NCBI GenBank assembly: GCA_902599495.1
Contig: CACKFY010000003.1
Location: 48,204-112,203 of the forward strand
DNA length: 64,000 nucleotides
Direction of reading: 5' to 3'
From: an uncultured Pelagibacteraceae bacterium
GTDB lineage: Bacteria > Pseudomonadota > Alphaproteobacteria > Pelagibacterales > Pelagibacteraceae
Below the pieces are notes generated by a model, which made no database searches, was not told the origin of the DNA, and worked only from the letters and a program-made list of their open reading frames with translations. This document shows positions 38,347-41,007 of this stretch, one piece after another. The position numbers and the translations under genes are program-made. The first letter of the stretch is position 1. The number at the start of each line of letters is the position of its first letter.

Positions 38347-40425
38347 ATGAGTATACCAGAATTAAAAAAAATAAAGAGCGAGAAAAAGTATCACAATACT
38401 ACTTTAAAGGATGATTATTCTTGGGTGGATCAGCCTGATATTTTAGATGTTTTAAAAAATCCAAATAAGCTACATCCTGAGGTTAAAAAGTACATTGAAG
38501 AAAATAACTTATTAACTGAAAAATATTTTGATGATGTTAAAGATTTGCAAAAAAAACTTTTTAATGAAATTAAATCAAAAATAAAACTCGATGATACATC
38601 TTTAAAATTTAAAGATAAAAAATACTTTTATTGGAGTAAAACTGAAGCTAAGGGGAATTATGGTAAGCGATTAAGACAATTAATCGATAAATCTAAACCA
38701 GAAGAAATTTATTTCGATGGAGACTTAGAAAAGAAAAAATCTGGATCCGAATATTTTGGCCTAGGTAGTGTCAGTGTTTCACATAATGATGACTTTATGG
38801 CATATTCTCTAGATTTAAAAGGATCTGAGTATTACACTATTTATTTAAGAGATTTAACTAATAGTAAAAATTTACCTGATCAAATTGAAAATACTAGCGG
38901 AAGTATTACTTGGTCACTAGATAGTAAAAGTTTTTTTTATTCAAAACTAGACAAATTTCACAGACCTAGAAAAATTTATAAACATTTTTTAGGTAAGCCT
39001 GTTGAAAGTGACGAGCTTATTTTTGAGGAAAAAGATGAAACTTTTACATGTAGTATTGGTTTAACATCGGATGAAAAATATTTCATAATTTCCACCTCAG
39101 ATCATATTACCACTGAGGAACATTTTTTTGAGTCAACTAGCGAAGAAATTAAACTAAGACTGTTTAAAAAAAGAAAAAAAGACGTACGTTATTCTTTGGA
39201 CTCCTGGGGAGATTATTTCTATGTTCACACCAATGAAAATGCAAGAGACTACAAAATTTTAAGGTGTAAAAAAGATAATATTGAAAATTTGGAGGAATTC
39301 GTTCCACCAAAAAAAGAGACGGTTATTGGTGGTTTAGATTTTTTGGATAATTATATAATTAGAGCTGAAAAATCTGATGCTATTCCAAAGTTATATGCGA
39401 GAAATATTAATACAAATGAGGAAGAGGAAATAAAAATTTCTAACGAACCTATTGGTGTTCCCGGAGCCAGTTTAATGCAAAAAGATACTAATACCTCTAA
39501 AATAAGAATTAGTTGGGAGAGCATGGCGACACCGGGTAAAATATTTGAATATGATATTAAAACAAAAGAAAAAAAATTAGTTAAGGAAGTTGAAATCCCT
39601 TCTGGCCATAATCCAGATAAATATATTGTTGAAAGAATAAAAGCTAAATCTCATGATGGACGTATGATACCTATTAGTTTAGTTAGACTTAAAAATTCAA
39701 AACAGGACGGAAAATCAAAAATATTATTATATGCTTACGGAGCTTATAAACATAGTGTATCTCCATCATTTAGTGCTTCAAGATTTTGCTTAGTTGATAG
39801 AGGTATTACATTCGCAATCGCACATATAAGAGGTGGGGGAGATTTAGGAGACAATTGGCACACAGAAGGGAAAAAGAAACTTAAGAAAAATACTTTTCAC
39901 GATTATATCGCATGTGCAAATCACTTAATTGAGCAAAGGTATACACATAAAGGCGGATTATGTTTTTACGGAGGTAGTGCTGGAGGACTTACAGGAGGTA
40001 GTGTAGCAAATATGGCTCCAGAATTATTTTTTGCAATGTTATTGCTAGTGCCTTTTGTAGATACAATGACAACGATGTTAAATGAAAAACTGCCACTCAC
40101 ACCAGCTGAGTGGGAGCTTTGGGGAAATCCAATTAAAAGTAAAGAGTACTTTGACTACATACTATCTTATTCTCCTTATAATAATTTAAGTAAAAAAAAA
40201 TACCCACCAATGTTAATCACGTCTTCAATATTTGATAACAGAGTTTTATATTCCGAGCCTGTAAAATATATTGCTAAGTTAAGAGATGTTAAAGAAGATG
40301 ACAACGAACAATTATTAAAGTGTAAAATGGAAGCAGCTGGTCATGGCGGAATGAGTGGTAGAGATAATGCTATTAAAGAACTTGCTGAAGAATATAGTTT
40401 TATTTTAAAGAACGCTAAAGTTTAA
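38347..40425 (+). CDS. S9 prolyl oligopeptidase / oligopeptidase B-like
   Basis: An N-terminal beta-propeller region precedes the hydrolase with nucleophile GGSAGG, acid in IFDNRVLY and histidine in EAAGHGG. The 692-residue length and HIRGGGDLGDNWH favour oligopeptidase B (PtrB), which cleaves short peptides after basic residues, over prolyl endopeptidase. No signal peptide is seen. It is followed directly by the heat-shock region. Confidence 0.9.
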   Translation: MSIPELKKIKSEKKYHNTTLKDDYSWVDQPDILDVLKNPNKLHPEVKKYIEENNLLTEKYFDDVKDLQKKLFNEIKSKIKLDDTSLKFKDKKYFYWSKTEAKGNYGKRLRQLIDKSKPEEIYFDGDLEKKKSGSEYFGLGSVSVSHNDDFMAYSLDLKGSEYYTIYLRDLTNSKNLPDQIENTSGSITWSLDSKSFFYSKLDKFHRPRKIYKHFLGKPVESDELIFEEKDETFTCSIGLTSDEKYFIISTSDHITTEEHFFESTSEEIKLRLFKKRKKDVRYSLDSWGDYFYVHTNENARDYKILRCKKDNIENLEEFVPPKKETVIGGLDFLDNYIIRAEKSDAIPKLYARNINTNEEEEIKISNEPIGVPGASLMQKDTNTSKIRISWESMATPGKIFEYDIKTKEKKLVKEVEIPSGHNPDKYIVERIKAKSHDGRMIPISLVRLKNSKQDGKSKILLYAYGAYKHSVSPSFSASRFCLVDRGITFAIAHIRGGGDLGDNWHTEGKKKLKKNTFHDYIACANHLIEQRYTHKGGLCFYGGSAGGLTGGSVANMAPELFFAMLLLVPFVDTMTTMLNEKLPLTPAEWELWGNPIKSKEYFDYILSYSPYNNLSKKKYPPMLITSSIFDNRVLYSEPVKYIAKLRDVKEDDNEQLLKCKMEAAGHGGMSGRDNAIKELAEEYSFILKNAKV

Positions 40426-40432
40426 ATACCAT

Positions 40433-40463
40433 CTTGAAAATTAAAAAAAAGTTACCATATAAA
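40433..40463 (+). promoter_or_regulatory. Heat-shock (sigma-32 type) promoter for hsp20
   Basis: CTTGAAA at 40433-40439 and CCATATAAA at 40455-40463 are separated by 15 bases. They match the RpoH promoter pattern of CTTGAA plus C-rich -10, and lie directly upstream of an sHsp gene. Transcription would begin near 40470, giving a short structured leader. Confidence 0.65.
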
Positions 40464-40466
40464 TTC

Positions 40467-40521
40467 TTGTTGATTGCCGAAAGGGATCAACATTAACCTT
40501 GCTAACAAAGGAGGAAATATG
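40467..40521 (+). ncRNA. ROSE-like RNA thermometer in the hsp20 leader
   Basis: The leader can form a first hairpin (TGTTGAT/ATCAACA, 7 bp, with a CC-GAAA-GG cap) at 40468-40492. A second stem can pair CTTGCT (40498-40503) with the Shine-Dalgarno AGGAGG (40509-40514) around a 5-base loop, including the U-U-G-C-U against A-G-G-A-G arrangement with a central G-G pair known from ROSE elements. At low temperature it would hide the ribosome site; heat would melt it. Confidence 0.6.
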
Positions 40522-40962
40522 ACAAGTAAGGATCTATCGATCTTTAATTCACTAAGACCTTTTAGCATTGGATTCGATGACATGTTTGATCAGTTCGAGT
40601 CTATGTTAGGGAATGGCAGTCTTGCTGTACAAAGCAATTACCCGCCATATAACATTCGAAAAGCAGGCAAAGATAAATATGCTATTGAAGTAGCAGTTGC
40701 TGGCTTTAACAAAGACGATGTTGAGGTAGAATATGAAGATAATCTTTTAACTGTAAAAACTAAACAAGTTAAAAGCACTGAGAAAAAAGATGGTGAAGAG
40801 ATAATTCATAGAGGTATTTCTCAAAGATCTTTTGCCAGATCATTTACAATTGCAGATGATGTAAAAGTAGGTGGTGCTGAGTTAAAAGATGGACTTTTGA
40901 CAATTTCTTGTGAAAAGATTGTGCCAGAAGCAAAGAAAAAAAGACTTATTGAGATCAAATAA
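40519..40962 (+). CDS. Small heat shock protein, Hsp20/IbpA family
   Basis: The alpha-crystallin domain spans about residues 40-140, with EVAVAGFNKDDVEVEYEDNLLTV and FARSFTIADDV. The track starts at TTG 40474; the real start is ATG 40519, preceded by AAAGGAGG with ideal spacing. The protein (147 residues) binds unfolding proteins during heat stress. Regulation is visible upstream: a heat-shock promoter and a likely RNA thermometer. A strong terminator follows. Confidence 0.93.
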   Translation: MTSKDLSIFNSLRPFSIGFDDMFDQFESMLGNGSLAVQSNYPPYNIRKAGKDKYAIEVAVAGFNKDDVEVEYEDNLLTVKTKQVKSTEKKDGEEIIHRGISQRSFARSFTIADDVKVGGAELKDGLLTISCEKIVPEAKKKRLIEIK

Positions 40963-40970
40963 GTTTACCT

Positions 40971-41007
40971 TACTTGCGGAGCAATCTCCGCAAGTAAACT
41001 TTTTTTA
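40971..41007 (+). terminator. Strong intrinsic terminator after hsp20
   Basis: An 11-bp stem TACTTGCGGAG / CTCCGCAAGTA with a 4-base CAAT loop is followed after AAC by TTTTTTT. It isolates the heat-shock gene from the next ORF, which starts just after it. Confidence 0.92.

Follow-up and report, generated by a model that had tools for sequence, protein, structure and literature searches.

A probable short ROSE-type RNA thermometer upstream of hsp20 in SAR11 bacteria, and similar leaders in tailed phages

The DNA analysed here (the window) is a stretch of 64,000 nucleotides from a SAR11 (Pelagibacteraceae) genome of 911 kb in 27 contigs, with an estimated completeness of 78%; it is placed there by its closest named relatives, which are uncultured members of that family. 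It carries hsp20, the only HSP20-family gene that a Pfam search found in this 78%-complete genome. Read directly from the sequence, the leader consists of CTTGAA, CCATAT, a hairpin with a bulged G, CCTTGCT, AACA, AAGGAGG and the ATG at 40519, in this order, and hsp20 is a single-gene unit. The features are as follows.

40433-40460, plus strand: RpoH-type promoter, CTTGAA at 40433-40438, spacer of 16, CCATAT at 40455-40460 (sequence, conservation)
40469-40491, plus strand: 5' hairpin of the ROSE hairpin I type, 23 nt, bulged G at 40476 (covariation)
40497-40503, plus strand: CCUUGCU, predicted anti-Shine-Dalgarno strand, containing U(U/C)GCU (CUYGCU conserved in the leaders compared; consensus fold)
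40508-40514, plus strand: Shine-Dalgarno (SD) sequence AAGGAGG, predicted partner of CCUUGCU (sequence, folding)
40519-40962, plus strand: hsp20, small heat-shock protein of 147 aa (open reading frame; 70.7 bits against Pfam HSP20, above the curated threshold)
40525-40531, plus strand: AGUAAGG (codons 3-5), alternative partner for CCUUGCU (minimum free energy pairing; fixed synonymous sites)
40528-40545, plus strand: coding inverted repeat competing with the codon 3-5 pairing (fold to +42; identical in 69 of 116 leaders)
40965-41006, plus strand: inverted repeat resembling a terminator, with a run of T, 3' of hsp20 (direct reading of the sequence, no scan)

An RpoH-like promoter had been proposed in a sequence-only reading of the locus, and this proposal was supported. 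The genome contains an rpoH gene (360.9 bits vs. a cut-off of 323.1), the exact CTTGAA-N16-CCATAT occurs at two genome sites, upstream of hsp20 and of groES-groEL, and a loosened pattern (TTGA-N-CYATAT-like) was present in 111 of 116 hsp20 leaders of the family. The pattern CTTGAA-N13-18-CCATNT is by itself weak proof, since it yielded seven sites in the genome and seven for the reversed control. Judging from these sequences, the hsp20 promoter is presumably used by RpoH. RpoH-dependent transcription is usual, not universal, for ROSE-like thermometers.

The hairpin downstream of the promoter had been described as 7 bp long. The hairpin is present, but the count of seven pairs was wrong: a lower stem of 7 bp is followed by the bulged G, CC/GG and a 4-nt loop, giving 9 pairs, or 10 if U40468-A40492 is counted. 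Covariation, which had been suggested as a check, was strong in this hairpin. In an alignment of 88 sequences (A2), 99.6% of the hairpin cells were paired and 5/9 pairs changed on both sides; the covariation score was 0.450 vs. 0.284 for shuffled alignments, none of 500 shuffles scored as high, and the score fell to 0.13 or less when the partner strand was slid. An alignment of 38 diverse sequences (A6) showed two-sided changes in 8/9 pairs, with 99.1% of cells paired and a score of 0.621 vs. 0.295 shuffled. The bulged G and the GCC..GGG core are kept. These sequence comparisons indicate that the 5' hairpin is an RNA structure under selection.

The pairing of CTTGCT with AGGAGG, also proposed before, was recovered as an RNAalifold consensus in which CCUUGCU pairs with AGGAGG. 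The central G-G position of the proposal did not stand as such, since another register has almost the same energy: the one with G-G and the one with a bulged G (U40500.G40511 paired, G40501 bulged) are about 0.6 kcal/mol apart at most between 5 and 37 C. As judged from the aligned strands, other genera retain the SD helix with a changed sequence. Two such leaders (L116 and L118) have CUCGCUU/AAGGAG, with six pairs and the best fit in the bulged-G register, and a third (L117) has the pairing strands ACUUGCUU/AAGGAGU. Within the sampled genera no covariation was found in this helix, because it is nearly invariant there (5/6 pairs of the SD-helix strand were constant in the 45-sequence model alignment). 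FourU thermometers have four consecutive U paired with the SD; the anti-SD strand here is CCUUGCU, and the leader does not belong to that type.

Isolated SD hairpins from 89 leaders had median folding energies of -5.86, -4.62, and -3.17 kcal/mol at 15, 25, and 37 C, respectively. The cost of opening the SD at 15 C exceeded that of shuffled sequences by more than 2 sd in only 3/89, 1/21, 0/6, and 0/12 leaders, by group; for this comparison the start position had been moved manually in five divergent leaders (L114-L118). Folding energy was rejected as proof of SD occlusion since so few leaders exceeded the shuffles. In folds of the window leader that ended at the AUG or at +42, the SD was predicted to be closed even at 42 C; in the fold that ended at +22, it was partly open and opened gradually from 4 to 42 C. 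No sharp SD switch was predicted in these folds over 4-42 C.

That the SD occlusion energies lie mostly inside the shuffled controls would fit a leader with no regulatory structure, in which an ordinary strong SD sits in a conserved neighbourhood. We consider this very improbable. None of the 500 shuffles reached the covariation score of the 5' hairpin, and among the 59 window ORFs of at least 120 aa a UYGCU-SD combination lies upstream of a single one, hsp20. The same combination also precedes hsp20 genes across the class far above the shuffled mean (58/80 vs. 1.06, see below). The short pattern YGCT-N3-9-AGGAG had 46 sites in the genome vs. 22 for the reversed control; as it is common genome-wide, the weight of the argument rests on position and conservation and not on the pattern.

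The gene hsp20 was found in 104/169 genomes of the genus, in 13/14 of those at least 90% complete, and in 259/297 genomes of the order. From 111 loci, 89 distinct upstream stretches were obtained, and further ones were added from more genera. CUYGCU followed by the SD was present in 116/116 family leaders compared, and the CTTGCT pairing was thus not lost in sister strains that keep hsp20. A model (R1) was built from 45 leaders. In the window it scored 67.3 bits at the hsp20 leader, with the next match at 13.4 bits, and it found 212/297 genomes of the order at E <= 0.001, one match per genome among the matches listed. All 40 R1 places checked ended 4-5 nt before the hsp20 match; these 40 were the ones for which an hsp20 position was also listed, and the others were dropped. 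Genome-wide, R1 missed four genomes from other genera (G169, G175, G220, and G425), which gave 26.8 to 20.8 bits when the locus was searched directly. The whole R1 model found neither the order's second family nor the Rfam ROSE loci L155-L157. Leaders of that second family (L120-L132) have several hairpins, with near-palindromic TTTAATCGCTTAAGGAGGATTAAA-like stems around the SD, and still contain UCGCU. Two genomes 99-100% complete (G200 and G315) and two others (G255 and G321) gave no hsp20 match and no leader match. With gene and leader both absent from some family genomes that are nearly complete, the unit was apparently lost in places.

The CCUUGCU strand has a second potential partner. 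In the minimum free energy structure of the leader with 22 nt of coding sequence at 37 C, it pairs with AGUAAGG in codons 3-5 and not with the SD. This structure suggests an alternative lock in which the CCUUGCU-AGUAAGG helix encloses the SD and the AUG in its loop. The two pairings are mutually exclusive, so the leader would then be a switch or a double lock and not a ROSE zipper. Codon usage agrees with such a constraint in the genus of the window and its neighbours, where AGT AAG is fixed at synonymous sites: codon 3 is AGT in 110/110 genes, and all 108 of these genes in which codon 4 still encodes Lys use AAG, a codon that accounts for 216 of 1338 Lys codons further along hsp20. The mean major-codon share is 0.947 in codons 2-13 (in the window, the region 40519-40560) vs. 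0.835 later in the gene. AGTAAG occurs within the first five codons in 109/116 leaders, and in one leader (L113) it is shifted to codons 2-3 and still complementary. The codon constraint may, however, stem from elsewhere, e.g. initiation efficiency. With 42 nt of coding sequence the codon 3-5 pairing loses, because the coding inverted repeat, found in 69/116 leaders, takes up AAGG, and RNAalifold picked the SD pairing. Complementarity to codons 3-5 is lost or weakened in L114 and L115 (one mismatch), L116, L117, L118, L152, and the second family, all of which keep the SD partner. We regard the alternative lock as possible but doubtful, and take the SD pairing to be the older mechanism and the coding pairing possibly a local addition.

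The resemblance of the leader to ROSE thermometers was evaluated with Rfam models. The Rfam ROSE model (RF00435) gave no match at E <= 10 in 40300-40700 and none over the cut-off across the window. When the isolated 69-nt leader was searched against 4227 Rfam families, the one match at E <= 10 was a full-length match to ROSE_3 (RF02523), with 16.6 bits and E 0.09, short of the gathering cut-off of 43 bits. The consensus of Rfam ROSE opens with a hairpin in which six pairs are followed by a bulged G, then CC, a four-base loop, and GG. The 5' hairpin of the SAR11 leader has this bulged-G form of hairpin I, shared by Rfam ROSE and ROSE_3, a feature that the sequence-only reading had not recognised. 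Rfam ROSE resembles the SAR11 leader in hairpin I (GCC, 4-nt loop, GG, and bulged G) and in UUGCU at the SD, but differs in its 94 positions, its central hairpin, and a longer SD stem. ROSE_3 shares with the leader the two hairpins, the bulged G of hairpin I, and a UYGCU-type strand at the SD.

ROSE-like thermometers have been described as carrying U(U/C)GCU imperfectly paired with the SD in the 3' hairpin of a small heat-shock gene (PMC3669281), and they have two to four hairpins in all (PMC4166951). The SAR11 leader has one upstream hairpin, with covariation, U(U/C)GCU on the SD, where the pairing is present in the consensus fold and absent from the single-sequence minimum free energy structure to +22, and a small heat-shock gene downstream. 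On these sequence features the leader is ROSE-like by the published description and lies outside the Rfam cut-offs; the CUYGCU-SD conserved in 116/116 leaders together with a 5' hairpin like hairpin I supports the ROSE-type reading. The same paper (PMC3669281) reports that Pseudomonas ROSE leaders with two hairpins and the same motif function as thermometers, and that the second hairpin of Pseudomonas ibpA is thermoresponsive alone. Further likenesses between ibpA and the SAR11 leader are a small heat-shock gene, an RpoH-type promoter, a stable hairpin 1, and a short hairpin 2 that places U(U/C)GCU on the SD. The SD hairpin is weaker in SAR11, at about -3.2 kcal/mol at 37 C compared to the -4.1 to -7.6 kcal/mol quoted there for Pseudomonas, and the SAR11 leader differs from ibpA in being AT-rich and in its extra complementarity to codons 3-5. 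In a passage of Stav et al. 2019 (PMC6429828) 'a possible RNA thermometer' is mentioned in SAR11 strain HIMB5, which belongs to the same clade; the passages of the main text on it give neither gene nor sequence. It may be this very leader, in which case the SAR11 hsp20 leader has perhaps already been noted there without detail. Among the papers listed in our literature search, which covered mainly open-access texts, no SAR11 hsp20 thermometer appeared except in this remark.

Both parts of the leader recur across the class. UYGCU-SD was found upstream of 58/80 alphaproteobacterial hsp20 genes, compared to a mean of 1.06 and a maximum of 4 in shuffles, and 50 of those 58 leaders had a GCC..GG hairpin with a bulged G, vs. 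0/58 when shuffled. The 80 upstream regions were chosen by rank, without the top-scoring ones and some between, and all 80 were counted. A hairpin-only model (R2) matched 6/80 of these regions at E <= 0.06. One of its matches (L216) was the same place as a candidate (L155) from the Rfam ROSE search, which ran with stricter filters. A search of the 30 top-scoring class-wide HSP20 loci with the whole R1 model led nowhere. The idea that the short leader results from genome streamlining was rejected: among 50 class-wide leaders the length from hairpin I to the SD, a rough measure as the hairpin finder may sometimes take the central hairpin, was uncorrelated with the size of the genome (Spearman 0.07, p = 0.62), and genomes of 2.3-5.4 Mb can have short leaders too.

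The covariation, the conserved bulged G, and the GCC..GGG core all reside in the 5' hairpin, and the predicted opening of the SD has no sharp temperature step. These observations would also be expected of a protein-binding or mRNA-stabilising element, for instance a regulator on the 5' hairpin, with the UUGCU-SD complementarity being no sensor; in a passage of Krajewski et al. (PMC3669281) mRNA stabilisation is suggested for hairpin I in Pseudomonas. Such a role and that of a thermometer can coexist, though. Class-wide and in phages, small heat-shock genes have these two hairpins upstream, with UYGCU at the SD, and in the Pseudomonas passages cited above the second hairpin responds to temperature without the first. 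As a replacement for the thermometer, this explanation seems unlikely to us.

Viral contigs were scanned for relatives of Hsp20, which yielded 73 loci. Of 71 viral loci searched with R1, 54 gave a match at E < 0.1, in each case upstream of hsp20 and on the coding strand; many of the contigs are near-identical, and the matches therefore do not count as independent. With a simple pattern search, 50/70 viral loci were marked, of which at least three (L330, L338, and L343) look spurious, and Rfam scans of 17 viral loci gave no ROSE. In viral leaders such as L310, L314, L317, L332, L341, and L346, ACUGUCU replaces UUGCU and a similar upstream hairpin is kept; these are possibly another variant of the SD lock. 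In two viral loci (L302:2008-2058 and L311:2009-2059) hsp20 is closely followed by a glutamine riboswitch (RF01739, 64-67 bits).

Among named phages, 508/50,697 records had an Hsp20 relative. We fetched 26 of these phages, 14 from the best matches and 12 from a spread list, in a sample that excludes phages of Pseudomonas, Vibrio, Salmonella, Campylobacter, and E. coli. They comprised the Pelagibacter phages HTVC008M, Mosig, HTVC103P, and HTVC115P, phage Melnitz-3, and phage C48C1 (host not stated), the rest being cyanophages. UYGCU-SD was present in 25/26 of their hsp20 leaders, the bulged-G hairpin in 22/26, and both in 21/26; one shuffle of each leader gave 0, 0, and 0, respectively. The phage hairpins were aligned (A7 and A8) from 20 and 12 of 33 distinct hairpins retrieved with a loose pattern, and one hairpin (L300) was omitted as it fitted neither register. 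Covariation was seen in 6/8 pairs with 20 sequences (score 0.611 vs. 0.201) and in 5/8 pairs with ten distinct sequences (0.675 vs. 0.193). Rfam ROSE_3 matched 4/20 phage loci at E 0.0015-0.33, below the cut-off and each time in the hsp20 leader. When R1 was run with strict filters on 16 whole phage records, the hsp20 leader was the best place in nine, one record had only an unrelated weak match, and six had none. Several phage hsp20 leaders sit behind a TATAAATA-like stretch, which by its sequence resembles the T4 late promoter, quoted as TATAAAT in a passage of PMC3037559.

The phage leaders are the unexpected part of the finding. Tailed phages that infect SAR11, a methylotroph, or picocyanobacteria probably carry their own ROSE-type thermometer before hsp20, through which chaperone synthesis would be gated by sea temperature independently of the heat-shock sigma factor of the host, and the phages may have taken leader and hsp20 together from an alphaproteobacterium. 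PMC3037559 gives hsp20 as a core gene of cyanobacterial T4-like phages. A term search of the available text of two marine-phage hsp20 papers (PMC3827213 and PMC3037559) returned no mention of a thermometer, and the papers listed in our literature search gave no phage or cyanophage hsp20 thermometer; one of them was on a Sphingomonas small heat-shock protein. If the reading is true, the phage leader would tie viral chaperone output to warming water.

For the SAR11 leader itself, the sequence parts, their conservation, the covariation of the 5' hairpin, and an architecture common to known ROSE leaders were observed directly. In our view this leader very probably serves the single-gene hsp20 unit as a short RNA thermometer of the two-hairpin ROSE type, in which the SD helix melts on warming. 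From the same features we infer promoter use, SD occlusion in the cell, a melting temperature, and a heat response. Under protein-folding stress RpoH would transcribe the hsp20 mRNA, as its promoter suggests, and the stable 5' hairpin, at or near the start of the mRNA, probably helps folding or stability. At ordinary sea temperature CCUUGCU would pair imperfectly with AAGGAGG and keep ribosomes off; warming would melt the weak SD helix, and Hsp20 would be made. The weakness of this helix predicts a set point near upper sea temperatures and not at 42 C. SAR11 bacteria belong to the most abundant cells of the ocean, and the regulators that they retain are very few. That a thermometer of this probable kind is found in nearly every hsp20-bearing genome of a family with so few regulators may be taken as a sign that temperature-gated chaperone synthesis pays.
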